A stretch of DNA of 12,963 nt, from contig JAFAEU010000072.1 of the NCBI GenBank assembly GCA_023423855.1, positions 1-12,963 on the forward strand. Direction: 5' to 3'. The position numbers and the translations under genes were made by a program. A model generated the notes under the pieces. It was not told the DNA's origin. It saw only the letters and a list, made by a program, of their open reading frames with translations, and ran no database searches. This DNA is from Pseudomonadota bacterium (GTDB lineage Bacteria; Pseudomonadota; Gammaproteobacteria; Xanthomonadales; Xanthomonadaceae). Below are positions 1 through 12,963 of this stretch, piece by piece (position 1 is the first letter of the stretch; every line of letters starts with the position of its first letter).

Positions 1-1875
1 TCCGCTGCCGCCGACGAGGTTGGCCTCGACCGGCGCGTCGCTCCAGGCGTAGCGCACCGCGACAGGGGTCGGCACCGCATCGCTGCGCACGAGCACCTTG
101 CCGTCTTCGATCGTGGCGGTGGCCGGATGGAACACACGATCGGCGCCGGCCAGCCGGAATCCCCGCAGGCTTCCACCATCGCGCGCGGCGAGTCCGCCGG
201 GCTCGAATGCGAGCGTCGCCACGCCGTCGTCGAAGTCCGCGCCCTTGAACACGGGGCCGCCGTGGACCAGCGATTCCCCGTAGGCCACGTGCCGCGCCAC
301 GAGTGCGAGCCGCTTGCCGACGTCCTGCTTGTTCTTCGGATGGATGTCGTCGACGTCGCCGATGTCGATCGTCACCACTTCCCCGGTCGCGGGCAGCGAC
401 AGCGTCGCCGTCTGCGATTCGCGCAGCACCGACCACGGGCTGGTGTCGCCCTGATCGCCGCCGGAATGCCAACTCGCCAGCTGCACCCACAGGAACGGCA
501 GCCGCGGCGCGTTCCACTGCGCGCGCCACTGGCCGATCATCGCCGGGAACTGTTCGCGGTACTTCAGCGCCTGTTCGATGCTGCCCGCGTTCGATTCGCC
601 CTGGTACCAGATCACGCCGCGCAGCCCGTAGGGCTGCAGCGGATGCAGCATGGCGTTGTAGAGCAGCGTGGCGCGCTGGTTCTTGTTGTCGTCGAGCGCG
701 AGCGCGCTGACGCTGGCGGGGCGGAACTTCCACGTGCCGGCCAGCGGACGGCGTTCGCCGCCCTGCGGCTGCACGAAGACCTCGTCGTCAGGGCCGTGGA
801 TGCCGCCACCGCCGCCGGTGTCGGTCACCCGCACCGCGACCTCGTTCGCACCCGCGCGCAGCGCCGACGCCGGCACGGCATAGCGGCGCGGTTCGTTGTA
901 CCGCATGTGGGTCGCGCCCACCTGTACGCCGTTGACCCAGGTGGTGTCGGAATCGTCGATGCGGCCGACGCCGAGCACGATGCCCGCCTTCGCTTCCTCC
1001 GCCGACAGCGTGAACGTGGTGCGGTACCAGGCCACGCCGTCCATGCCGTTCCAGCCGGCGCCTTCCCACAGGCCTGGCACCCGCAGCGTGTCCCACTGCG
1101 CATCGTCGAAGCCCGCCGCCTGCCAGCCGGCGTCGTCGGCCGGCAATTGCCAACGCGCGAGCCTGGAGCGCGCCTGCGCGAGCGCGGCCTCATCGTCGGC
1201 CTTGAGCTGGCGCGCCAGTTCGGCCAGGCCGTCGCCGTCGATGCCCTGCGTGGCCGCGTCCATCCACGCCTCGATCGAGCTGCCGCCCCAGGTGCTGTCG
1301 ATGATGCCGATCGGCACGCCTTCGGATTCGCGCAGTTCGCGCGCGAAGAAGTGCGCGATGGCCGAGAAGCTGCCCGCCGCCGCCGGCGAGGACGCGACCC
1401 AGTCGCCGCCGGCGAGCTGCCGTTCCGGCGTGCCCGACCACGACTTCGGGACCTTGAAGTGGCGGATCAGCGGATCGGTGGCGCGCGCGATCTCGGCCTC
1501 GGCATCGGCCGACTGCGAAATCGGCCACTCCATGTTCGACTGGCCCGAGGCCAGCCAGACGTCGCCGACCAGCACGTCGCGCAGCTCGCGCAGCACCTGG
1601 CCGTCGTCGATCCGCATCGCGTAGGGACCGCCGGCCTTGCGCGGCGGCAGCTCGACCCGCCACGCGCCGTCGGCCCCGGCCCGCGCGTGAGCGCTATCAC
1701 CCGCGAGCGTGACCGTGACACGCGCGTCGGTCCCGGCGCGGCCCCAGACCTGGATCGGCTGATCGCGCTGCAGCACCATGCCGTCGGCGAACACGCGCGG
1801 CAGTTCGACCGCCTGCGCGGAGGCGGCGAGCAGGAGCAGGGCGAGGCCGGCGACGATGCGGGGAAGTGGCTTCAC
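1..1875 (-). CDS. Carbohydrate acetylesterase, sialate O-acetylesterase/CE20 type (3' end cut by window)
   Basis: The minus frame is open for 625 codons from a GTG at 1875 to the left edge. Family members are about 650 residues, so only a short C-terminal piece is missing. Residues 1-22 form a signal peptide (hydrophobic run GLALLLLAASAQA), so the enzyme should be periplasmic or exported. The SGNH/SASA core shows GQSNMEW with the predicted nucleophile Ser113, the STWGGSSIEAW block near Trp196, WYQGESN at 423-429, and DIHP with Asp510 and His512 as the predicted catalytic pair. A galactose-binding-like jelly-roll segment (about residues 245-365, with VAWYRTTF around Trp283) interrupts the esterase domain. 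That split layout, and its place after GH74, fit the xyloglucan acetylesterase family CE20 from Xanthomonas better than a true sialate esterase. Acetylated galactose on xyloglucan as substrate is inference. The start is GTG because no in-frame ATG precedes the signal peptide and the next ATG is residue 33. It lies 110 bp after GH74, probably on the same transcript. Confidence 0.88.
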   Translation of the reverse strand, partial: MKPLPRIVAGLALLLLAASAQAVELPRVFADGMVLQRDQPIQVWGRAGTDARVTVTLAGDSAHARAGADGAWRVELPPRKAGGPYAMRIDDGQVLRELRDVLVGDVWLASGQSNMEWPISQSADAEAEIARATDPLIRHFKVPKSWSGTPERQLAGGDWVASSPAAAGSFSAIAHFFARELRESEGVPIGIIDSTWGGSSIEAWMDAATQGIDGDGLAELARQLKADDEAALAQARSRLARWQLPADDAGWQAAGFDDAQWDTLRVPGLWEGAGWNGMDGVAWYRTTFTLSAEEAKAGIVLGVGRIDDSDTTWVNGVQVGATHMRYNEPRRYAVPASALRAGANEVAVRVTDTGGGGGIHGPDDEVFVQPQGGERRPLAGTWKFRPASVSALALDDNKNQRATLLYNAMLHPLQPYGLRGVIWYQGESNAGSIEQALKYREQFPAMIGQWRAQWNAPRLPFLWVQLASWHSGGDQGDTSPWSVLRESQTATLSLPATGEVVTIDIGDVDDIHPKNKQDVGKRLALVARHVAYGESLVHGGPVFKGADFDDGVATLAFEPGGLAARDGGSLRGFRLAGADRVFHPATATIEDGKVLVRSDAVPTPVAVRYAWSDAPVEANLVGGSG

Positions 1876-1896
1876 GGATGCACCCGCAATGCCAGA

Positions 1897-1970
1897 CCTG
1901 TCATTCCGAACGCAGTGAGGAATCTCGCCCTTCAGGCAAGCAGATTTCCCGCTGCGCTCGAAATGACAGG
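1897..1970. repeat. Palindromic intergenic repeat, copy 1 (imperfect)
   Basis: This is an inverted repeat that fills most of the gap between GH74 and the esterase. The outer 9 bases are perfect (CCTGTCATT at 1897-1905, AATGACAGG at 1962-1970). The arms continue inward for about 30 bases with five mismatches, all transitions. The core reads CGAACGCAG on the left and CTGCGCTCG on the right. It shares arm sequence with the copy at 4386-4464. In RNA it would form a long hairpin between the two genes of a likely operon, which could protect or uncouple the upstream message. It is a repeat-family element of the kind scattered in genomes of this group, and no transposase accompanies it. Confidence 0.85.
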
Positions 1971-1985
1971 GCTTCAGTTCATGCC

Positions 1986-4217
1986 TCATCGCGGATCTCC
2001 ATACCAGATGCCGCGCCCCTCGGTGCCGAAGTAGACGCGGCCATGCAGGCGGGGATCGCCCGTCACGTGGCGCATGATGCCGCCAAAACGCAGCGCATCA
2101 TGGTCGATGCGCGTCCAGCGGCGGCCGCCGTTGTCCGAGCGGTGCAGGCCGAGCCTGCCGTTGACCTCGCCGTACACGAACAGCACCGGCGGATCGCCCT
2201 CCTTCGCTGGCCGTCCGAGGCCGACCGAATGCGCGTTGTCCACGCCCGGCACGCGCTCGAGCTTGCCCGGCGACCAGTGCAGCAGGCCGCGCCAGGACGC
2301 GGTGATCCAGGCTTCGCCCGTGCGCTGCGGATGCGGGCGGATCTCGGGACGGAACCAGTCGCCGATCGCGCCCACCTGCGCTTCCACCTCCACGAAGGAC
2401 ACGCCGCCGTTGCCGCTCACGTACAGCTTTCCGGCAATCGGGTCGAAGCCGTAGTACACCGCCTCGTCGACCCGGTCGGCTTCCACCACCGCGCCCTTCG
2501 GCAGCCCTTTCACCGCCTGCCAGCGCCCGCCCATGTCGGCGGTGAGCCAGTGGCCGCCGCCGCGCGGCTGCCAGATCGCGCGCTCGCCGTCGGCGGCGAG
2601 GGTGATGCGGCCGGCGCCTTCGCCCTCGGGCGGCTCCTGCGCGAACGCGGTCCAGTTGCGCCCGCCGTCGTCCGACCACGCGCCGCGCACCGCGCCCTCG
2701 GGCCGGTTGTGGAAATACCCGGTGCGCACCATGCGCTGCGGCGCCTGCCCGGCGAAGGCGAGGCTTTCGGTGTTGGAGAAGCGCACGCCGGAAAAGCGCT
2801 GCTGCGAGGCGTCGAGGGCGTCGTGCGCGAAGCCGTCGACGTCGCCGAGCCCGCTCACCAGGTGCGCGCCCTGCGGCGGGCTCAGCAGCGCCAGCGGCAC
2901 GGTTTCCTCGAAGCCGCGCTGCTCGAACGTCCACTGCAGCGTATCGCCGGCGTCGAACGCGCGCGCGTTGCGCGAGGCCCAGACGCCGTAGCCGGTGACG
3001 AACCAGATGCGCTCGGGATCGTGCGGATCGATCTCGACGTCGGCCATCCAGTGCGGCTTGGCATCGAGGGTCCACGGCGCGGCCGAGTGGTCGAAGGCCG
3101 AACGCGCGAACGTCGCCGTCCAGGTGCGGCCGCCGTCGGTGCTGCGGTAGAGGTCGTCGTGCGGCACGTAGCGGCGGAAGGTGGTGGCGACGATCACATC
3201 CGGATCGCGCGCATCGACCGCCACCGCGCCCCAGCCGAAGCCGCTGGCCTGCGCGGCGATGCGCGGCAGCGGCGTGATGTCGATCCAGCTGCCGTCGGCG
3301 GGATCGAAGCGGTACACCGCGCCGTCGGCCATGTTGTTCGGACCCGGCTCGTCGCCGTAGCTCAGCAGCCAGCGTCCGCGCCCGTCGCGCACCATGTGGC
3401 TCGGGCGCAGACCCACGGGCTGTCCGGGCACTGCCTGCCAGCTCGCGCCGCCGTCGTCGGAACGGTAGACGCTCGTTTCCTTCGTGGAGACACCGGCGTA
3501 GATCGTGCGCGAGGGCGTGCCTGCCGCACCGCTGCCGGGCTCGAACACCACGAAGGCGATGCCGATCGGCTGCTCCTCGCGCCATGCCTCGGCCCAGGCC
3601 GCGCGCGACTTCGCGACCGCCGGGAAGCCGGGCAACTCCCGCCAGCGCGCGCCGCCGTCGTCGCTGCGCCACAGGCCGTTCGCACGCGTGCCGAAGAGCA
3701 GCACGCGGCCGTCGTTGGGATCCACCGCCAACCGTTCGCCGTTGCCGCGCCCCTGCGCATTGCCGCCGAGCTTGAACGGCAGCGTCGCGCGCTGGAACGT
3801 GGCGCCACGATCGCTCGAACGCAGGATCGCACCGTCGTCGCCGCGCTCGTGCAGGTAGGTGCCGACCGCGAGGTAGACGCGATCGGGATCGGACGGATCC
3901 AGTGCCAGACTCTCGACGCCGAAGCGGCCCTTGTCGTCGGCGCCCATCCAGTCGAGCAGCGGCGTCCAGCGACCATCGGCCTCCCGTCGGTAGGCGCCGC
4001 CGATGTCGGTGCGCGCATACAGCAGGCCCGGCTCGGCGGGATGGAACACCAGCCCGCTGACGAAGCCGCCGCCGCCGATGGCGACGTTGCGCCATTGATA
4101 GGCCGCGTCCCGCGCCGACGCGGAGGACGCGACGCAGGCGCACGTGACCAGCAGCCACGCCCACGCCCTTGAACACCGGTCCGTGCCTCGCACGGATCGC
4201 CCTGCCTGGAGCCTCAT
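1986..4217 (-). CDS. Glycoside hydrolase family 74 xyloglucanase
   Basis: The predicted protein is 743 residues, a normal GH74 length, and has no attached carbohydrate-binding domain. It has a signal peptide (RAWAWLLVTCACVASSASA, cut after about residue 35). The mature part opens with the GH74 signature GGGGFVSGLVFHP and YARTDIGGAYR, where Asp71 corresponds to one catalytic acid. LVSGLGDVDGF carries Asp459 as the likely second one. Asp-box motifs of the two seven-bladed propellers are visible, for example SSDRGATF (134-141), SDDGGARW (185-192) and SDDGGASW (253-260), with STDGGRTW and SDNGGRRW later. The family cleaves the beta-1,4-glucan backbone of xyloglucan; endo or exo mode cannot be told from the sequence. 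I chose the ATG at 4217, not the in-frame ATG at 4301, because 4217 begins directly before the signal peptide and the promoter candidate at 4254-4283 lies between the two. A GAGGG lies about 10 bases before the start. Confidence 0.95.
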   Translation of the reverse strand: MRLQAGRSVRGTDRCSRAWAWLLVTCACVASSASARDAAYQWRNVAIGGGGFVSGLVFHPAEPGLLYARTDIGGAYRREADGRWTPLLDWMGADDKGRFGVESLALDPSDPDRVYLAVGTYLHERGDDGAILRSSDRGATFQRATLPFKLGGNAQGRGNGERLAVDPNDGRVLLFGTRANGLWRSDDGGARWRELPGFPAVAKSRAAWAEAWREEQPIGIAFVVFEPGSGAAGTPSRTIYAGVSTKETSVYRSDDGGASWQAVPGQPVGLRPSHMVRDGRGRWLLSYGDEPGPNNMADGAVYRFDPADGSWIDITPLPRIAAQASGFGWGAVAVDARDPDVIVATTFRRYVPHDDLYRSTDGGRTWTATFARSAFDHSAAPWTLDAKPHWMADVEIDPHDPERIWFVTGYGVWASRNARAFDAGDTLQWTFEQRGFEETVPLALLSPPQGAHLVSGLGDVDGFAHDALDASQQRFSGVRFSNTESLAFAGQAPQRMVRTGYFHNRPEGAVRGAWSDDGGRNWTAFAQEPPEGEGAGRITLAADGERAIWQPRGGGHWLTADMGGRWQAVKGLPKGAVVEADRVDEAVYYGFDPIAGKLYVSGNGGVSFVEVEAQVGAIGDWFRPEIRPHPQRTGEAWITASWRGLLHWSPGKLERVPGVDNAHSVGLGRPAKEGDPPVLFVYGEVNGRLGLHRSDNGGRRWTRIDHDALRFGGIMRHVTGDPRLHGRVYFGTEGRGIWYGDPR

Positions 4218-4253: not shown

Positions 4254-4283
4254 AGGATAGGGGGCGCAGGCATGCCGTTCCAA
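4254..4283 (-). promoter_or_regulatory. Candidate promoter of GH74
   Basis: On the minus strand TTGGAA (4283-4278) is followed after 18 bases by TATCCT (4259-4254). The arrangement CATTGG, an 18-base gap, then CCTATCCTC closely matches the receptor promoter at 11257-11287 (CATTGG, 19 bases, CCTATGCTC). Predicted transcription starts near 4246, about 30 nt before the chosen ATG. The -35 hexamer is poor, which fits an activator-dependent promoter. Confidence 0.45.
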
Positions 4284-4307
4284 TGAAGAAATTCCAGACA
4301 CGTATAG
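4284..4307 (-). promoter_or_regulatory. Degenerate LysR-type binding site upstream of GH74
   Basis: Reading toward GH74, CTATA-N8-GAATT (4307-4290) has the same spacing as the CTATT-N8-GAATA palindromes at 11306-11323 and 12403-12420, and matches the former at 13 of 18 positions. It is followed by TTTCTTCATTGG, which resembles the ATTTCATT block of those elements, but without the 9-bp gap. The T-N11-A rule for LysR-type sites is met. It is a weaker copy and could be chance. Confidence 0.35.
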
Positions 4308-4385
4308 CGCCGGGGAATGCTGCGTTGCGCCATCCGCTGATGGACGGCAAAGTCTCCGCGGTCTGGAAAGACATCCCGGAAAAGC

Positions 4386-4464
4386 CTGTCATTTCGACCG
4401 CAGGGAGAAATCATCTTCCCACGCGCCGGACAGGAGATTTCTCCCTGCGGTCGAAATGACAGGT
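4386..4464. repeat. Palindromic intergenic repeat, copy 2 (perfect 28-bp arms)
   Basis: This is an inverted repeat with perfect 28-bp arms (4386-4413 and 4437-4464) and a 23-base centre. The outer sequence is CCTGTCATTTCGACCGCAG, the same family as the element at 1897-1970. Flanking AAAGCC sequences extend the symmetry, with a small offset on one side. It sits between the terminator of the second receptor and the GH74 promoter. Perfect arms suggest a recent insertion or selection for pairing. Confidence 0.92.
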
Positions 4465-4498
4465 CGGCTTTCTCCGGCTTGTTCCCTCATTCGGGAGA

Positions 4499-4557: not shown

Positions 4558-7500
4558 TTACCAGCGCGCGCGCAGCACCGCCGAATAGCGGCGGTCGTTC
4601 ATGAAGTACGAACGCGCGTACAGCGTCTCATCGATGTAGCCGTCGGCATACGGACGCGGCCCCATCAGCACCTTGGTGATCGAGTCGGTCAGGTTGTTGG
4701 CCTGGATGCCGATCTGGATGTTGTCGTTGATGTTGTAGAAGAACGACCCGTCCAGCTGGCCGAAGTCGTCCGCCCACATCGGCAGCTGCAGGTTGGTCTC
4801 GCTGGCGGTCAGCAGGTAGCGCGAGCGCCAGTTGTACGCCAGGCGGAACGACCACGGCCCCTTCTCGTAGACGCCCACCACGTTGTAGGCGCGCTTGGAC
4901 AGACCTTCCAGCGGCAGGTTGTCGATCTGCGGGCGACGGGCTTCGGGATCGGTCGGATCGGGATTGGTGTTGCGTCCGCCCGAGCTGTCGACGTAGGTGT
5001 AGTTGGCCTGCACGCCGAAGCCGCTCAGCCAGCCGGGCAGGAAGTCGAAGAACTGGTTCCAGCCCACCTCGAAGCCCTGGATCCTGCCGGTGTCGAGGTT
5101 GTGCGGGCGGGTGATCGCCCAGGTGATGCCGCCGATCTCCTCGTCCCGCGTCTCGGTGACGAAGTAGCCCTCGACGTCCTTGTAGAACACGGTCGCGTAG
5201 AGCATGTTCGCCGGCCCGAAGTACCACTCCAGCGCGGTGTCGAACTGGTTGGCGCGCATTGGCTCCAACTCGGGGTTGCCGGCACTGCCGGAGTAACCCT
5301 GCAGGTACTCGTAGCCGCAGGGCTGGTCGTCGTTCAACTCCGGCTGGCACTCGTCGCTGATCCCGACGCGCAGCGGCAGCCACGCCGTCATCTGCCGGAA
5401 GTCGGGGCGCGCGATGGCCTTGGACGCGGCGAAGCGCCACTGCAGCTTGTCGGTCAGGTGCAGGCGCAGGTTCAGGCTGGGCAGCACGTCGGTGTAGCTG
5501 CCGCGACTGTGGATGTCGAAGTAGCTGCCGTCGTACTGGTCGCGGATCTCCTGGATCAACCGGGCCTGGCCGCTCAGGTCCGGGATCTGGCCGAAGCCGT
5601 CGGTGCGCGTGCTGGTCTTGACGATGCGGACGCCGACGTTGCCGTCCAGGGTCTTGCCGCCGAAGACGCTGTCGTTCTCGAAGTACAGCACGCCATACGC
5701 GGCCTGGGTGAGCTCGTCCTGGTAGTTGGTGTCCTGCGGGTTGAACACCGCCGGCAGCCAGCCGTCGAGCCCGGCGGCCATGCGGTCCGCGTACAGCCCC
5801 GGGAAGGCGGCGCCCGCGTTGGACAGCTCCACGATCGCGTTGGTCGGGTACCACAGGTTGCCCGGCACGTTGACCTGTCCGCGGAAGAAGTTGCCCATGG
5901 TGTACAGCTCGGAATACTGGGGCAGGTAGCGGTCGAGCCATGCCAGCTCGTTGCCACCGTCCCACGACCCGTACTGACCGGTCGCACCCGGGTCGAGCGT
6001 GGCCCAGGTCGCGCTGATCGGCTTCCAGTTGTCCCAGCCGCTGTCCTTGTTGATCTGGTTGCGCGACGCGACGCGCGCGCCGAAGCGGGCGAAGCGCAGC
6101 CAGCTGCCGTCGTCGAAGGTGTACTCGAAGTCCAGCCTGGCCGCGCGCGACTTGCCGCGGTTGTCCTGCAGGTTGTCCATCGCCGCCAGCCACGAATACT
6201 GGGACTGGTCCTGCAGCTGCCCGTCGTCGGCCAGCTGCAGCGACGGGTACTTGCCGGTCAGGTCCACGTAGATGTCGCCGAGGAAGATGCTGGAGATGAC
6301 GCTGAAGTCCACCGGCTTGCTGGACGATTCCACGTACTGGAAATCACCGCGCATGACCAGCTTGTCGGTCATGAAGTGGCGGAAGCCGGCCGACCAGTCG
6401 CTGGTCACCGTCTCCTGCCTGGACAGGCGGTTGGTGGTGCGGAAGGCGAGGCTGTACGGCCTCACGCCGCAGCACAGCGAGGTGATGTGGAGGTTCCGCT
6501 CGATTTCCTCCCAGGGCAGGCTCCAGTCGATCTCGCCGTCCGGGTCGAGGTTCACCCAGTCGATGTCGTTGCGCCTGCGGGTCACGTGGCCGCTCTGGAA
6601 CACGCCATTGGCGTCGTAGGTGAACTGCGTGCCCGGCGCCGGCAGGATGTCGTTGTCGCGCCAGGCGCCGTCCGCGCCCTGCAGCTGGTCGCCGAACGTC
6701 ATCGAATGCTCGCGCCACTGCATGTTGTACTTCGAGCGCAGGAACTGCGTATAGATTTCCGTGTTCTCGTTCGGCCGCCACTGGAACGCGAGCGCCATGC
6801 CCTGGCGCTCGCGCTCGAAATCGAGCGTGCGCCAGTTGACACCGCCGGGGATGGTCACCCAGTCGAAGCCGGTGCCCGCGAGAAGTTCGGGGTCGTTGCG
6901 GCGCTGGAAGGCCTCGATCTGGATGCCGTCCGAACGCGTGGCCAGCTCGGAGTACGAGAGGTTGGCCAGGAAGCCGAACTCGCCGGCGCCGGTCTCCCAG
7001 CGATCGCTGAACAGGATCGACCCGGAAGGATTGCCGCGCTTGGCGAAGTCGCCGTGGTTGTAGTCGAGGCTGGCGGCGACCTTGCGGCCGGGTTCGTCGA
7101 ACGGCATGCGCGTGCGCAGGTTGACCGTGCCGCCGAGGCCGCCCTCGATGATTTCCGCCGACGGGTTCTTGTACACGTCCACGCCGGCCATCAGCTCGGA
7201 CGGCACTTCCTCGAAGCTCAGGCCGCGGCCGCCGTTGGCGCTGAACACGTCGCGACCGTTGAGCTCGCCGCGCACCTGGGTCAGGCCGCGGATCATCACG
7301 CCGCTGCCTTCGGCCGAGAAGTGGTCGGGATCGTCGCGCGCCAGGAAGTTGGTCACGGTCACGCCGGACACGCGCTTGAGCGTTTCGGTGACGCTGCGGT
7401 CGGGCAGCGCGCCGATGTCCTCGGCGGTCACCGAGTCGACGATCTGGCTCGCCTCCTGCTTGATCTCCTGCGCGCGCATCACGCTGCCGCGCACGCCCTT

Positions 7501-7692
7501 GACCACGACGGTGTCGAAATCGGTCGGGTCGGCCGCCGTGGAGGACGGCGCCGGGTCACTGGCGACCTGCGCCCAGGCGGGCGCCGCCAGCATCGCGGCC
7601 ACGCCCAGGGCGATGGCGCTGCGCCGGAACGTGCGTGCAGGATCGAAGCCTGCCGTCCGGGCCGCCGGACGGTGGTGATGGAGCGTTCGCAT
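4558..7692 (-). CDS. TonB-dependent outer-membrane receptor, Xanthomonas/Caulobacter type (second of pair)
   Basis: The predicted protein has 1044 residues. A signal peptide (FRRSAIALGVAAMLAAPAWA) ends at about residue 41. A TonB-box-like DTVVVKG lies at 60-66. A plug domain follows, with VDSVTAEDIGALPDRSVTETL and VMIRGLTQVRGELNGRD. The rest is a 22-strand-type barrel ending in an aromatic residue (LRARW), as outer-membrane proteins do. Its job would be energy-dependent import of oligosaccharides; the adjacent GH74 points to xyloglucan fragments, which is inference. Start: ATG 7692 is preceded by GGAGG with a 6-base gap, whereas the in-frame ATG at 7716 lies upstream of that site. It has a long leader with its own promoter candidate and a strong terminator. 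The barrel has cysteines, rare in this class: a Cys-Cys pair at 407-408 (SLCCGVRP) and DECQPELNDDQPC, probably in outer loops. It is paralogous to the gene at 8154-11135. Confidence 0.95.
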   Translation of the reverse strand: MRTLHHHRPAARTAGFDPARTFRRSAIALGVAAMLAAPAWAQVASDPAPSSTAADPTDFDTVVVKGVRGSVMRAQEIKQEASQIVDSVTAEDIGALPDRSVTETLKRVSGVTVTNFLARDDPDHFSAEGSGVMIRGLTQVRGELNGRDVFSANGGRGLSFEEVPSELMAGVDVYKNPSAEIIEGGLGGTVNLRTRMPFDEPGRKVAASLDYNHGDFAKRGNPSGSILFSDRWETGAGEFGFLANLSYSELATRSDGIQIEAFQRRNDPELLAGTGFDWVTIPGGVNWRTLDFERERQGMALAFQWRPNENTEIYTQFLRSKYNMQWREHSMTFGDQLQGADGAWRDNDILPAPGTQFTYDANGVFQSGHVTRRRNDIDWVNLDPDGEIDWSLPWEEIERNLHITSLCCGVRPYSLAFRTTNRLSRQETVTSDWSAGFRHFMTDKLVMRGDFQYVESSSKPVDFSVISSIFLGDIYVDLTGKYPSLQLADDGQLQDQSQYSWLAAMDNLQDNRGKSRAARLDFEYTFDDGSWLRFARFGARVASRNQINKDSGWDNWKPISATWATLDPGATGQYGSWDGGNELAWLDRYLPQYSELYTMGNFFRGQVNVPGNLWYPTNAIVELSNAGAAFPGLYADRMAAGLDGWLPAVFNPQDTNYQDELTQAAYGVLYFENDSVFGGKTLDGNVGVRIVKTSTRTDGFGQIPDLSGQARLIQEIRDQYDGSYFDIHSRGSYTDVLPSLNLRLHLTDKLQWRFAASKAIARPDFRQMTAWLPLRVGISDECQPELNDDQPCGYEYLQGYSGSAGNPELEPMRANQFDTALEWYFGPANMLYATVFYKDVEGYFVTETRDEEIGGITWAITRPHNLDTGRIQGFEVGWNQFFDFLPGWLSGFGVQANYTYVDSSGGRNTNPDPTDPEARRPQIDNLPLEGLSKRAYNVVGVYEKGPWSFRLAYNWRSRYLLTASETNLQLPMWADDFGQLDGSFFYNINDNIQIGIQANNLTDSITKVLMGPRPYADGYIDETLYARSYFMNDRRYSAVLRARW

Positions 7693-7739
7693 GATTTCCC
7701 TCCCGAGGATGCGCATCGAACAAATGGATTGTGGTCACC

Positions 7740-8153: not shown

Positions 8154-11135
8154 TCAGAAGGTGAAGCGCAGCGTCGCCGCGTAGCGCCGGTCGTTCACGT
8201 ACCACGAGGTGACGCGCCGGCCGGCCCCGTTCTGGTCCATGATCGTGCGTTGCTCGGCGTTGTTGAGGTTGTTCATCTCCAGGCCGATCTGCACGTTGTC
8301 GGAGAACCGGTAGAAGATCGAACCGTCGAGCTGGCCGAAGCTGTCGCTGTAGACCGGCAGCTTCCAGTTGACGTTGTTGTCGGTCTCCGCATCGGCGTCG
8401 GGGTCGTAGCTGCCGTTGTATCCATTGGGACCGACCGAGAGCAGGTACTCGCTGCGCCAGTTGTAGGCCAGGCGGATCTGCCACGGGCCCTTCTCATAGA
8501 ACGCGGCGACGTTGTAGGCGTTCTTCGACAGGCCATCGGCCGGCAGGTCTCCGAACAGCGAACCATCGGTGTCGACAGGCGCCACGTCGATGTTGTTCGG
8601 CACCCTGGTCGAGCTGTCGATGTAGGTGTAGTTGGCCGACATGCCGAAGCCGTCGAACGGCGCAGGCAGGAAATCGAAGAACTGGTTCCAGCCGATCTCG
8701 GCGCCCTGGATCTTCGCGGTCCCCACGTTCACCGGGCGCGTGATCAGGTAGTTGTATTCGTTGCCGTCGGCGCCCGGATAGGCGACCAGCTCGGTCTGGC
8801 GACGGAAGTAGTCCTTGACGTCCTTGTAGAAGAGGTTGACCCACGCCATGCCGCCACGATCCGGCGCGAAGTACCACTCCAGCGACAGGTCGAACTGGTT
8901 GGCCTTCATCGGCTCCAGGTACGGGTTGTCGTAGGAGCTGCCCGTCAGGTCGAGGTCGGTCACCGGCAGCGCGCTGCCATCGTCCGGCGGATCGATGCCG
9001 GGCCGGGTGCCCACATTGAGCATCTGGTAGGCCTGCATGTCGCTGAAGTTCGGCCTCGCGATCGCCTTCGATGCGGCGAAGCGCATGACCCAGTTCTCCG
9101 CGAACTCCCACTTCAGGTTGGCGCTGGGCAGGATGTCGGTATAGGAATTCTCCGCCGTCACCGGCACCGCCTCGCCCGCACCCAGGTAGGGGGCGTACGG
9201 CTGGTTCGGATAGACCAGGTAGCCCGCCGCGCTGTTCTCGGTACGCACGACGCGCACGCCGAAGTTGCCGTCGAGCAGCAGGTCGTCCACCGCGAAGTTG
9301 AGCATCGCGTAGGCGGCGTAGGTCTTCTCGCGCTGCTCGTTGCCCCATTGCGGGTCGGCCAGGTTGCGCGGCGCGTAGACGCCGGCGTAGCAGCACAGGT
9401 AGTACGGATCGGCGGCGCTGTGGATGGCCTGGTAGCTGTTCGGGAAGCCGAGCGCGGTCGCCAGGATCGGCGCGTAGATCGCGCCGGGGGTGTTGGCGTC
9501 GCCGCGGTAGAAGTTCTCGAACGTGGTCAAGTTGACCAGGCTCGAGTTGACCTGGTCGTTGAGGTTGACGCCCGGCAGCGGCTGGTCGCCCGGCAGCGCC
9601 CACCACTGCATCCACGGCTGGATCACCGGCTGCCAGTCGTAGCCGGTGTCGATGCTGTGCGCGTCGCGATCGGTCACGCGCACGCCGAACTTGACCGAAT
9701 CGAAGAAATTGCTGTCGAAGCTGTGCTTGAGGTCGGCGCGCCAGGCGATCTCCTCGGCCTCGTTGTCGTCCTGGTGGTCCATCGTGAACGCCCAGTAGGA
9801 GTTGTCGAGGTTCGCGGTGAAGGACTCGTCGACGCCGATCACCGGCCGGCCGCCGCTGACGTCGATGTCGATGTAGGGAACGTTCAGGCCCAGCGTGACG
9901 GTGGAATCCAGCGCCCGGGTGTCGGCCTTGATGTACTGGAGATCGGTCGAGAACTCGGTGCGGTCGCCGATCAGCCACTTCAGGCCCGCCGAGAAGTCCC
10001 GGGTCTTGGATTGGCGATGCGAGGCGCGGATGTCCGCGCCCATCGGGATGTTGCCGTTCGAGGCCACGCGGCCGGACACGAAGACGTCGCCATCGAGTTC
10101 GTAGGGCTGGCTGGCGTCGAGCCGCATCTGCAGCGGGTCGTTGTCGAGGAAGATCGCGTCCTCGTACCACAGCTCGTCGTAGCTGCTCTGGAACGCGGTG
10201 GCGAACAGTTCGACGCGGTCGTTCGGGCGCCACTGCAGGGCCACGTAGGCGCCCTGGCGTTCGCGCTCGTAATCGAGCGTGCGCCAGTCGGCGCCGCGCG
10301 GGATCCACACCGGGTCGCCGCTGCCGTCGCCGTCGAGATCGGCGTTGGCGTTGTTGAAGAACGGGCGCACGAACATGCCGTCGGTACGCGTGGCCAGTTC
10401 CGAATGCGCGATGTCGACCAGGATGCCGAAGTCGCCGGCATCCGTGCTCCAGCGGTTGCTGTACAGGATCGAGCCCGAGGGCTTGAGCTTGTCGGCGAAA
10501 TCGCCGCGGTTGGCGCTGAAGGACATGCCGAACTTGCTGCCCTCGAAATCGAAGGGCATGAAGGTGCGCAGGTCGACCGTGCCGCCGAGGCCGCCCTCGA
10601 TCATCGCGGCGGTCTGGTTCTTGTACACGTCGACGCCGGCCATCAGTTCCGACGGCACGTCCTGGAAGCTGAGGCTGCGGCCGCCGGAGGCGGAGAAACT
10701 GTCGCGGCCGTTGAGTTCGGAGCGCACCTGGGTCAGGCCGCGCACGGCCACGCCGGCGCCTTCAGCGGAGAAGTGCTCGGGGTCGCCCACCGACAGGAAG
10801 CGGTCGATGGTGATGCCGGGGATGCGCGAGAGGGTCTCGGTGACGCTGCGGTCGGGCAGCGCGCCGATGTCGAGCGCGGTGACCGAATCAACGAAGGTGT
10901 CGGCATCGCGCTTGATGTCCTGGGCGCGGTAGACCGACGCGCGGATGCCCTTGACCACGACCGCGTCGAGATCGGTGGCGGCCTCGCCGGCGGCGGTGGC
11001 GTCGGCCTCCTGCGCGTGGGCGGTGCCGAGCAGCATGGCCGCGACGCCCAGGGCGATGGCGGAGCGGCGGAACGTGCGGATGGCGTCGGAGCCTGCCGGA
11101 CCGGCGGCTGGTCGGCGGTTGCGGAGCATTGACAT
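8154..11135 (-). CDS. TonB-dependent outer-membrane receptor, Xanthomonas/Caulobacter type (first of pair)
   Basis: The predicted protein has 993 residues: signal peptide to about residue 41 (FRRSAIALGVAAMLLGTAHA), TonB-box-like DAVVVKG at 57-63, and a plug with VDSVTALDIGALPDRSVTETL and VAVRGLTQVRSELNGRD. A long barrel ends in Phe (ATLRFTF). Start: the ATG at 11135 has GGGAGGGG about 6 bases upstream, while the in-frame ATG at 11159 precedes that site. The plug is very similar to that of the next receptor, while the barrel is less so, as expected for paralogues taking different ligands. A Cys-Cys pair (YYLCCYAG, residues 581-582) appears to be its only cysteines. Upstream lie a LysR-type element, a promoter candidate and LacI-like operators. 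Import of galactose-bearing xyloglucan oligosaccharides is inferred from neighbours and shared regulation. Confidence 0.95.
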   Translation of the reverse strand: MSMLRNRRPAAGPAGSDAIRTFRRSAIALGVAAMLLGTAHAQEADATAAGEAATDLDAVVVKGIRASVYRAQDIKRDADTFVDSVTALDIGALPDRSVTETLSRIPGITIDRFLSVGDPEHFSAEGAGVAVRGLTQVRSELNGRDSFSASGGRSLSFQDVPSELMAGVDVYKNQTAAMIEGGLGGTVDLRTFMPFDFEGSKFGMSFSANRGDFADKLKPSGSILYSNRWSTDAGDFGILVDIAHSELATRTDGMFVRPFFNNANADLDGDGSGDPVWIPRGADWRTLDYERERQGAYVALQWRPNDRVELFATAFQSSYDELWYEDAIFLDNDPLQMRLDASQPYELDGDVFVSGRVASNGNIPMGADIRASHRQSKTRDFSAGLKWLIGDRTEFSTDLQYIKADTRALDSTVTLGLNVPYIDIDVSGGRPVIGVDESFTANLDNSYWAFTMDHQDDNEAEEIAWRADLKHSFDSNFFDSVKFGVRVTDRDAHSIDTGYDWQPVIQPWMQWWALPGDQPLPGVNLNDQVNSSLVNLTTFENFYRGDANTPGAIYAPILATALGFPNSYQAIHSAADPYYLCCYAGVYAPRNLADPQWGNEQREKTYAAYAMLNFAVDDLLLDGNFGVRVVRTENSAAGYLVYPNQPYAPYLGAGEAVPVTAENSYTDILPSANLKWEFAENWVMRFAASKAIARPNFSDMQAYQMLNVGTRPGIDPPDDGSALPVTDLDLTGSSYDNPYLEPMKANQFDLSLEWYFAPDRGGMAWVNLFYKDVKDYFRRQTELVAYPGADGNEYNYLITRPVNVGTAKIQGAEIGWNQFFDFLPAPFDGFGMSANYTYIDSSTRVPNNIDVAPVDTDGSLFGDLPADGLSKNAYNVAAFYEKGPWQIRLAYNWRSEYLLSVGPNGYNGSYDPDADAETDNNVNWKLPVYSDSFGQLDGSIFYRFSDNVQIGLEMNNLNNAEQRTIMDQNGAGRRVTSWYVNDRRYAATLRFTF

Positions 11136-11205
11136 GGCGTTCCCCTCCCAAGGACACATGACAAGCGGATCGAACTGGTTTTCTGGCCGCCTCGGCCGCG
11201 GAACG

Positions 11206-11256: not shown

Positions 11257-11287
11257 AGCATAGGAGCGCCGAGCAATGCTAGACCAA
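11257..11287 (-). promoter_or_regulatory. Candidate promoter of the first TonB-dependent receptor
   Basis: On the minus strand TTGGTC (11287-11282) and TATGCT (11262-11257) are separated by 19 bases. The -35 hexamer touches the end of the LysR-type element at 11286-11324, the usual geometry for activation by this family. The layout is repeated upstream of GH74. Predicted leader is about 115 nt. Confidence 0.45.
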
Positions 11288-11324
11288 TGAAATTTTGCTT
11301 CTTGGCTATTTTTTTCTGGAATAC
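11286..11324 (-). promoter_or_regulatory. Bipartite LysR-type element, receptor copy
   Basis: On the plus strand this reads AATGAAATTTT (11286-11296), 9 bases, then CTATT-N8-GAATA (11306-11323). It has the same blocks and spacing as the element at 12402-12440. Seen from the receptor gene the palindrome is distal and the 11-bp block proximal, next to the -35. This fits a recognition site plus an activation site for a LysR-type regulator, most simply the one encoded at 11400-12377. Confidence 0.65.
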
Positions 11325-11330
11325 CTCAGT

Positions 11331-11346
11331 CCCGGCGGCGGCCGGG
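11331..11346 (-). other. Hairpin downstream of the LysR-type gene
   Basis: A perfect CCCGGC/GCCGGG stem with a 4-base loop lies 53 bases after the regulator's stop codon; a smaller GGCGGA/TCCGCC hairpin lies at 11375-11387. Neither is followed by a T run on the minus strand, so intrinsic termination is not well supported. Read-through of the regulator gene into the receptor control region is possible. Confidence 0.25.
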
Positions 11347-11399
11347 CATCCGCGGAGGCGGTCATCGAACCCGTGGCGGAATCCGCCGGCGCGGGGTGG

Positions 11400-12377
11400 T
11401 CAGCCGCGGCGCGCGAGGCTCGGCGCGGGCAGCGGCGGATAGATGCGGCGGGCGGTCTCGCGCAGGGTGTCGAGCATGCGGGCCACGCCCGGTGACGGCG
11501 TCTTGTCGCGGCGGCGGATGATGCCGAAGTACTCCATGCGCACGCCCAGGTCGATCGGCAGGACCTGCATCTGCGCGGTCTGCAGGTAGGGCGCCACCGA
11601 CTCGGTCGGGAGCGCGGTGAGCAGGTCGCTGTGGCGCAGCAGGTGGATGATGACCGGCAGCGACGAGGTTTCCACCAGGTTCTGCGGCGAGCGCAGTCCG
11701 TACTGGTGGAACACCGCGTCCAGCCGCGTGCGCAGCACGCTGCCGCGCGGCGGCATGATCCAGCCGTGGTCCTGCAGGTCGGCGTGGCGCACCGTCTCCG
11801 CCGCGGCCAGCGGATGCCCGCTGCGGACGATGACCGCGTGCGGCTCGTCGGCCAGCGGTTCGAACTCCAGTTCGTCGGCGCCTTCGGGCCCCATGATGCG
11901 GCCGATGACGATGTCCAGCTGGCCGTCGAGCAGGCGCGCGACCAGCGGCCGGCTGTAGTCCATCTCGACCTCGACCAGGAGGCCGGGGAAGTCCCGCTTC
12001 ACCGCGGCGACGGCCTGCGGCACCAGGGTCGTGCCCGGATTGACCACGGTGCCGATCGACACCTGGCCCAGCCGCCCTTCGCGCAGCGCGGCGATCTCCT
12101 CGCGGGCGCGCTCGATCTCCGACAGCGCCGAGCGCGCGCGCCGCACCATCGCCAGGCCGAAGGTGGTCGGCTCGACGCCGCGGGCATGGCGTTCGAACAG
12201 CGGCACGCCGAGCAGGCCTTCCATTTCCGCCAGCAGCTTGGAGGCCGCCGGCTGGGTCATGTTCGCGGCCTCGGCCGCGCGCAGCACCGAACGCTGCTCG
12301 TACAGGTGCAGCAGCAGCGCGAGGTGCCGGGTCTTGAGCCGCGTCGCGGCGGACCATCCCGTGGCGGGTTGCACCAT
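11400..12377 (-). CDS. LysR-type transcriptional regulator, GbpR-like
   Basis: The predicted protein has 325 residues. The N-terminal winged helix-turn-helix spans about 13-72, with RLKTRHLALLLHLYEQRSVLRAAE and the recognition helix MTQPAASKLLAEMEG (40-54), then VPLFERHARGVEPT. The effector domain follows (VSIGTVVNPGTTLVPQAV, QLDIVIGRI). The TRHL...MTQPAASKLL style is that of the GbpR group, whose namesake controls galactose-binding protein in Azospirillum. Start: ATG 12377 has GGGAG 6 bases upstream. It diverges from dgoA, and a LysR-type palindrome begins 24 bases before its own ATG, predicting autorepression and activation of dgoA. The shared element at 11286-11324 predicts control of the receptor as well. 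The inducer may be a galactose or galactonate pathway intermediate; this is inference. Confidence 0.93.
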   Translation of the reverse strand: MVQPATGWSAATRLKTRHLALLLHLYEQRSVLRAAEAANMTQPAASKLLAEMEGLLGVPLFERHARGVEPTTFGLAMVRRARSALSEIERAREEIAALREGRLGQVSIGTVVNPGTTLVPQAVAAVKRDFPGLLVEVEMDYSRPLVARLLDGQLDIVIGRIMGPEGADELEFEPLADEPHAVIVRSGHPLAAAETVRHADLQDHGWIMPPRGSVLRTRLDAVFHQYGLRSPQNLVETSSLPVIIHLLRHSDLLTALPTESVAPYLQTAQMQVLPIDLGVRMEYFGIIRRRDKTPSPGVARMLDTLRETARRIYPPLPAPSLARRG

Positions 12378-12401
12378 GACGAACTCCCGTGGGCCGTTGA
12401 T

Positions 12402-12440
12402 CTATTCGTTGGGGGAATAGCGTACGACGAAAATTTCATT
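12402..12440 (+). promoter_or_regulatory. Bipartite LysR-type element between lysR and dgoA
   Basis: On the plus strand this reads CTATTC-N7-GAATAG (12402-12420), a perfect 6-bp palindrome meeting the T-N11-A rule, then 9 bases, then AAAATTTCATT (12430-12440). The palindrome lies in the lysR leader or promoter. Toward dgoA the AAAATTTCATT block is proximal and abuts TTGCCG (12440-12445), a possible -35; no convincing -10 follows at normal spacing (TATGCC at 12469 is 23 bases away). The remaining gap to dgoA, 12446-12585, is GC-rich and I see no other clear site in it. Confidence 0.7.
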
Positions 12441-12585
12441 TGCCGTACATACCACCGCCACGCGAGGCTATGCCCGGCTTCCGCGGAGGCGGCCCGGGCG
12501 GGCACTCTCCGTACGGGCGGCGACCCGCCGGAACAGGCGAGCGCCCCTTCGAGCCACGTGGACAGGGACCGGGAGGAAGACTCGA

Positions 12586-12689: not shown

Positions 12690-12963
12690 ATGGACCGCCA
12701 TCCCCCGCCCCTCCGCCTGCCCCTGATCGCCATCCTGCGCGGCATCACGCCCGACGACATCGCCGGGCACGCCGGCGCGCTGGTGGACGAGGGCTACGAC
12801 GCGATCGAGATCCCCACCAATTCGCCGGACTGGGCGCGCAGCGTCGCGGTCGCCGTGCGCGAGTGCGGCGCGCACGCGGGCATCGGCGCCGGCACGGTGC
12901 TCGAAGCCGCGCACGTCGATGCGCTGCTGGCCGCGGGCGGCACGCTCGCGGTCACGCCCAACG
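12690..12963 (+). CDS. dgoA: 2-dehydro-3-deoxy-6-phosphogalactonate aldolase (5' part only)
   Basis: Ninety-one codons lie before the right edge. The product starts with PLIAILRGITPDDI, then GYDAIEIPTNSPDW and GIGAGTVL, ending at LAVTPN. These match the KDPG/KDPGal class I aldolase family, and the PTNSPDW segment resembles the galactonate enzyme DgoA (PLNSPQW) more than the Entner-Doudoroff enzyme Eda. Arg17 and Glu40 correspond to active-site residues; the Schiff-base lysine lies beyond the window. The reaction splits KDPGal into pyruvate and glyceraldehyde 3-phosphate, the last step of galactose oxidation through galactonate. Start: ATG 12690 has GAGG 5 bases upstream. It is divergent from the LysR-type gene with a shared control region; the rest of a dgo operon probably follows. 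Confidence 0.93.
   Translation, partial: MDRHPPPLRLPLIAILRGITPDDIAGHAGALVDEGYDAIEIPTNSPDWARSVAVAVRECGAHAGIGAGTVLEAAHVDALLAAGGTLAVTPN

Follow-up and report, generated by a model that had tools for sequence, protein, structure and literature searches.

A conserved two-part element as the predicted operator of a GamR-type LysR regulon for galactose breakdown and plant polysaccharide uptake

In the stretch of DNA analysed here (the window, 12,963 nt), a gene for a LysR-type regulator lies between dgoA and a gene for a TonB-dependent receptor, and a similar two-part DNA element is found at each of its ends. The question raised by this arrangement is whether the elements belong to one regulon, as a preliminary description of the sequence had proposed, or have another origin or another reader. 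The LysR protein is 98% identical to a LysR protein of Luteimonas marina. Leftwards from the right end, the gene order is dgoA (partial, plus strand), lysR, receptor 1, receptor 2, GH74, and esterase (all minus strand). The term GamR-type refers to GamR, which is described in passages of three papers as the LysR-type regulator of galactose metabolism in Xanthomonas oryzae (Rashid 2016, via PMC8245568, PMC7831014, PMC6965072). The features are as follows:

1 to 1989, minus strand: CE20-type xyloglucan acetylesterase, truncated by the window start (PDB 7kmm, XacXaeA, 761 bits)
1986 to 4217, minus strand: GH74 xyloglucanase (PDB 7kn8, 825 bits)
4270 to 4322, plus strand: predicted operator 3, a weaker copy before the GH74 gene (matrix score 25.8)
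4558 to 7716, minus strand: TonB-dependent receptor 2 (TIGR01782, 661 bits)
8154 to 11159, minus strand: TonB-dependent receptor 1 (TIGR01782, 680 bits)
11274 to 11326, plus strand: predicted operator 2, the full element before receptor 1, with its core at 11286-11323 (matrix score 54.9)
11400 to 12377, minus strand: lysR, GamR-type regulator of 325 aa (HTH_1 and LysR_substrate domains; gene context)
12400 to 12452, minus strand: predicted operator 1, the full 53-bp element between lysR and dgoA (matrix score 64.0)
12402 to 12420, no strand assigned: distal palindrome CTATTC-N7-GAATAG of the LysR T-N11-A type, predicted high-affinity site
12430 to 12440, minus strand: proximal block AATGAAATTTT, predicted activation site towards dgoA
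12690 to 12963, plus strand: dgoA, 2-dehydro-3-deoxy-6-phosphogalactonate aldolase, truncated by the window end (NF006600, PF01081)

The lysR product is assigned to the LysR-type transcriptional regulators by both of its domains, an N-terminal HTH_1 (62.2 bits, Pfam cut-off 26.6) and a C-terminal LysR substrate domain (135.7 bits, cut-off 28). The dgoA fragment matches PF01081 above the cut-off; because it is only 91 aa long, its NF006600 score falls under the whole-protein cut-off. The complete dgoA is present in a related locus (L001), followed by genes for galactonate dehydratase (NF010624, 645 bits, cut-off 311) and a gluconolactonase-like protein and, about 0.9 kb beyond the latter, by a GH43 gene. 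We take dgoA, the dehydratase gene, and the lactonase-like gene to make up an oxidative galactose pathway. In another locus (L091), the first gene between lysR and dgoA encodes a short-chain dehydrogenase, perhaps a galactose dehydrogenase, and a gene of this type may also occur elsewhere, where about 1 kb separates dgoA from lysR. A second LysR protein, about 40% identical to that of the window, is encoded at G001:C1:905802-906743 and at similar places in many genomes. The start of the GH74 gene is the ATG at 4217; the mechanical open reading frame extends to 4301.

In LysR operators such as those of BenM and CatM, a distal recognition palindrome of the form T-N11-A is accompanied by an activation site nearer to the promoter, and the regulator gene is divergent. 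The palindrome in the window has this form, with a second site beside it. Between lysR and dgoA, TATTC-N7-GAATA is found with AATGAAATTTT about 24 bp away and beside the divergent regulator gene, which fits an operator of the LysR type. The preliminary description had held that the two elements share the block and both half-sites exactly and almost nothing else. This was borne out: AATGAAATTTT-N9-CTATT-N8-GAATA occurs with 0 mismatches at 11286-11323 (plus) and 12403-12440 (minus), and a by-eye count finds the 39-bp elements identical at only 3 of their 18 other positions. The orientation is also as described, with the 11-bp block towards dgoA or receptor 1 and the palindrome distal. When the window was shuffled 200 times with dinucleotides preserved, the pattern gave 0 matches at up to three mismatches. 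A scan of five Luteimonas genomes with the motif at the same tolerance found 7 places, every one at the lysR locus.

To what extent is the element kept among relatives? LysR matches at E<=1e-50 were found in 72 genomes of a family sample of 297, among them one with a 41% paralogue only (G218) and one with a partial copy (G296). A total of 74 loci were fetched (L001-L005, L049-L117), with G035 omitted (short contig); the paralogue locus (L088, G218) was then dropped and the window added, so that 74 loci were counted. LysR orthologues in the other family genomes are mostly 64-82% identical. At the level of the order, orthologues at E<=1e-90 occur in 26 of 299 genomes, of which 25 had been sampled with the family and G521 was the single addition, and plasmid records gave no LysR match of at least 60% identity.

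In the best register upstream of lysR, exact AATGAAATTTT is present in 69 of the 74 loci, CTATT in 70, and GAATA in 63. With a matrix of 75 aligned sites (A1; hereafter the second matrix), 73 of the 74 loci score at least 18 upstream of lysR, and L103, at 12.7, does not. Without L103 and L117, in which the spacing is altered, the 72 lysR/dgoA sites represent 57 distinct sequences and have the consensus TATG(T/C)-N-C-(G/T)(G/A)-CAAATGAAATTTTCG-N-CATA-NN-CTATTCC-N6-GAATA. The gap from AATGAA to CTAT is 14 in 131 cases, and the runner-up gap accounts for only 9. Furthermore, in all copies but one (73 of 74) the GAATA half lies 13-44 bp ahead of the aligned LysR residue 1; in the other copy the distance is 108 bp. 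The alignment of upstream regions, which had been proposed as a check, finds the lysR/dgoA blocks conserved, their spacing rigid, and their orientation constant. In L117 (G296), the regulator is only partly matched (residues 69-232), yet strong element matches remain beside it. In two Luteimonas loci (L003:9930-9982 and L004:9927-9979), the dgo-side block is flanked by an extra perfect inverted repeat, GTACGAC-N13-GTCGTAC. A shared promoter spacing was considered and rejected: a conserved GCGAGGCTA is present 3' of the dgo operator, but since the receptor-side spacing relative to it differs by eye, no promoter is claimed.

On the receptor side, 72 loci together have 102 further sites downstream of lysR and in the expected orientation that score above -21 with a matrix built from lysR/dgoA sites only. 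In a test of position with a matrix of all lysR/dgoA sites, 72 of the 74 loci had their best other match downstream of lysR and on the expected strand; the exceptions were L060, in which no receptor was found, and L073. An independent matrix, drawn from 38 lysR/dgoA sites of distant genomes only, scores 67.9 at operator 1 in the window and, second, 30.1 before receptor 1, with -3.0 before GH74 and -9.0 for background. The second matrix, whose training set, like that of the model R1 described below, includes many of the same sites, finds 181 sites with a score of at least 18 in 1.37 Mb: 73 at lysR/dgoA, 108 downstream on the expected strand, and 0 elsewhere. Twenty column-permuted versions of the matrix found 0 sites. 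The 108 downstream sites are spread over 73 of the 74 loci and stand before genes for receptors (93), GH74 (11), esterases (3), and one other. In L099, a strong downstream site (56.2) precedes an open reading frame that is neither receptor nor GH74/esterase and appears transporter-like by eye.

The receptor-side copies are looser than the window pair would suggest. Among the 102, AATGAA is found in 93, CTAT in 65, GAATA in 45, CTATT in 22, and exact AATGAAATTTT in 3 (the window, L001, and L057); the palindrome is often inexact. The identity at 21 of 21 positions therefore stands for the pair in the window and falls as a general statement, and the exact 11-bp block as a general receptor motif is ruled out by its 3 occurrences in 102. 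Because the receptor-side copies differ in detail, the perfect match is not the rule; the operator as such, unlike the perfect match, is.

These copies also bear on the idea that the two elements stem from a recent duplication of an intergenic segment and have no regulatory role. Their distance of about 1.1 kb, at both ends of lysR, would suit such an origin. However, the spacers disagree (the 3 identities in 18 positions), and both sites are found at the same places next to LysR proteins that are 65-80% identical, each site with its own consensus. Because the spacers mismatch and the sites are conserved separately, functionless duplication is rejected and its probability considered negligible. 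The dgo and receptor sites would be two separately conserved versions of one operator, which may set a graded order of induction.

The third element in the window, operator 3, lies 53 bp ahead of the GH74 ATG. Its score of 25.8 compares with at most 5.3 in 300 first-order Markov shuffles, and copies before GH74 also occur in L001, L002, and L089; the case is nevertheless weakest here. Ahead of receptor 2 in the window, nothing rises above background by matrix, although many relatives have a site at that place.

A model using sequence only, R1, was run on the 74 orthologue-bearing genomes in sets of 11, 12, and 51. Its E-values are rough, and many of these genomes also supplied its training sites; in the runs on the 51-genome set and on 72 regulator-free genomes, stricter filters applied and only the best first-look candidates were scored. 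A match at E<=1e-7 is present in 74 of 74 genomes that carry the LysR orthologue, and in G218, which has only the 41% paralogue, the best E-value is 0.04. A LysR match is absent from 225 family genomes; in the 72 of these that come first in numerical order, R1 found nothing at E<=1e-3, a single match at 1.5e-3, and four at E<=0.1. This co-occurrence is confounded, since the regulator-free genomes may simply lack the locus. G521, which is outside the training set, has a site on each side of lysR (46.6 and 54.3).

It could be argued that a DNA-binding protein other than the adjacent LysR uses the elements and that lysR merely neighbours them, given that the regulator and the locus are inherited together and that LysR binding is a prediction. 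Several observations speak against this reading, which is judged improbable. The palindrome has the T-N11-A form known for LysR proteins, with the second site beside it; the GAATA half keeps its place close before LysR residue 1 in nearly all copies (13-44 bp in 73 of 74); and R1 matches at E<=1e-3 are confined to regulator-bearing genomes. In addition, L060 (genome G265) has no receptor match at the locus and retains lysR, dgoA, and one operator, which is the sole match in that genome at E<=1. In the same genome, eight AraC-family loci have no element above background (best -2.6); hrpX was not identified among them.

A repeat family or an RNA-level feature, such as a REP-like palindrome, a terminator, or a leader structure, was also considered, as REP-like repeats are present in the window. 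One inverted repeat of the GTCATTTCGACCGCAGGGAGAAATC type lies at about 4387-4465, with another probably at about 1866-2034, and the start of the esterase open reading frame seems to enter a similar repeat (judged from its translation only). Such an explanation, for which the chance is put at next to nothing, has to contend with only 1-6 R1 matches per genome at the cut-offs used, among the matches listed, and with the fact that every one of the 181 strong sites in the loci fetched faces a gene in the same orientation.

How far does the predicted LysR regulon reach beyond the locus? R1 matches outside it are few among the matches listed. Ten were fetched, and two (L186 and L187) were dropped at matrix scores of -0.9 and -10.6. 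The eight that were kept have matrix scores of 27.7-52.1 and precede genes for TonB receptors (4; E 0.0017-0.39), GH5 (5e-7), GH39 (3e-4), GH97 (5e-5), and GH29 (0.47). At the four receptor loci and L185, the model E-values are weak (0.0017-0.47), a range partly reached by 4 of the 72 regulator-free genomes. In a second set of nine out-of-locus loci, L195 has no matrix site of at least 15 and the best in L194 is 16.4; these two were set aside. The sites in the other loci of this set stand before receptor-GH53-GH2 (L193), receptor-GH2 with GH29 beyond (L192), receptor-GH53 (L200), GH43 (L196, L198, L199), GH5 (L196), and a GH51-like gene together with a GH29 gene (L197); L192 and L193 are the neighbourhoods of two of the four out-of-locus receptor sites. 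GH53 and GH2 are galactan-side enzymes, and GH43 and GH51 are arabinan-side enzymes; the common theme would therefore be galactose- and arabinose-bearing plant polysaccharides. The regulon thus looks wider than first proposed: it would take in GH74 within the window and, at other places, genes for galactan or arabinan.

Taken together, these results have led to a model in which the elements are operators of the adjacent LysR-type regulator, bound by it as a tetramer, in a sugar-switched regulon of the dgo, receptor, and GH74 genes; this prediction from sequence is held with high confidence. One dimer of the tetramer would sit on the distal palindrome CTATTC-N7-GAATAG and the other, about 24 bp away from centre to centre, on the proximal block, which reads AATGAAATTTT or AATGAAATATT and lies towards the target promoter. 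The inducer would be a galactose-related sugar (D-galactose, an oxidation product of it, or L-arabinose) bound by LysR, and the induced protein would turn on transcription of the dgo operon, of the TonB receptor genes, and of GH74. LysR probably also limits its own synthesis, because the palindrome of operator 1 ends 24 bp ahead of the lysR start codon. Presence, conservation, spacing, orientation, co-occurrence, and target classes can be read from the DNA; from these we infer binding by LysR, the tetramer layout, activation, self-repression, and the inducer, with activation and self-repression deduced from where the sites lie and from how LysR proteins usually behave.

The direction of control cannot be read from sequence, and LysR could instead repress the polysaccharide genes, with the sugar relieving repression. 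This version of the model is considered unlikely. A proximal block with a distal palindrome is the layout of a LysR activator. Furthermore, passages of two papers describe positive regulation of hrp genes by GamR, and the X. campestris receptors XCC1749 and XCC1750, which are taken from their gene numbers to be counterparts of the xyloglucan receptors, are reported in a passage of PMC1790865 to be induced by arabinose and polygalacturonate.

The favoured reading is thus one GamR-type regulon, a prediction that is well supported. The proposal that it is kept by selection rather than by duplication is supported by the comparison among relatives, in which the blocks are conserved, the spacing is rigid, the orientation does not vary, and the element occurs together with the regulator. 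A conserved two-part element before genes for galactose breakdown and for the import and cutting of plant cell-wall sugars suggests that one regulator may switch them together. With less assurance, the evidence leans towards GamR as a master switch of the Xanthomonadaceae for galactose- and arabinose-bearing polysaccharides, in which one rigid two-part code would join the dgo genes, the receptors, and the xyloglucan, galactan, and arabinan hydrolases. With a sharp operator code, the regulon can be predicted in any family genome, and the code would explain how the outer-membrane uptake of polysaccharide fragments is coupled to oxidation of the galactose released. The passages covered present GamR of Xanthomonas as a galactose regulator with an input into virulence control.

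The preliminary description had called the regulator GbpR-like; by gene context, the nearest characterised relative is GamR at the xyloglucan locus of Xanthomonas. In passages of PMC8245568, the X. citri locus is described with two TonB transporters (XAC1768/1769), GH74, GH31, GH35, GH95, and an esterase; XAC1767 is named GamR there, 7KN8 is Xeg74, and 7KMM is XacXaeA, the CE20 founder. The window likewise clusters the genes expected of a xyloglucan utilisation locus, a GH74 endo-xyloglucanase (7KN8), a CE20 esterase (7KMM), and two TonB transporters. Because its gene set parallels the X. citri locus (PMC8245568), it is read as a Luteimonas xyloglucan locus with a GamR-type regulator. GH31, GH35, and GH95 belong to the Xanthomonas locus and would lie outside the window. 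The divergent dgo genes are an emphasis of the present analysis. The window lysR adjoins the xyloglucan TonB transporters and the GH74/CE20 genes, as GamR does, and the two regulators share the LysR family and a tie to galactose; from this context, the window regulator is very probably the Luteimonas counterpart of Xanthomonas GamR.

According to the passages covered, from one research paper and one review, GamR promotes hrp expression by binding at hrpG/hrpX, and hrpX rises with galactose in X. citri (PMC8245568). Xanthomonas GamR is thus described as a controller of hrpG/hrpX, and the material covered mentions neither an operator motif nor a connection with dgoA or the receptors, whereas operators are named here for the Luteimonas regulator. 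In the openly licensed literature (titles, abstract openings, and passages; subscription papers lay outside this scope), no GamR operator and no dgo-receptor-xyloglucanase regulon was recognised, and passages of PMC5507952, PMC13282271, PMC7036363, and PMC10714752 gave no operator for GamR or for a LysR galactose regulon.

Two further comparisons place the predicted regulon among known systems, and they concern GbpR and the LysR operators in general. GbpR of Agrobacterium and Azospirillum is a LysR regulator linked to galactose and arabinose uptake, and it controls a periplasmic ABC system, not TonB receptors. GbpR and the window LysR, likened here by description alone, are both LysR regulators tied to sugar uptake. 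Compared with LysR operators in general, the element in the window differs in its proximal block, AATGAAAT(A/T)TT, which is strongly conserved and hardly palindromic. The switch is of an ordinary LysR type; what the analysis adds is its DNA code and its list of genes.
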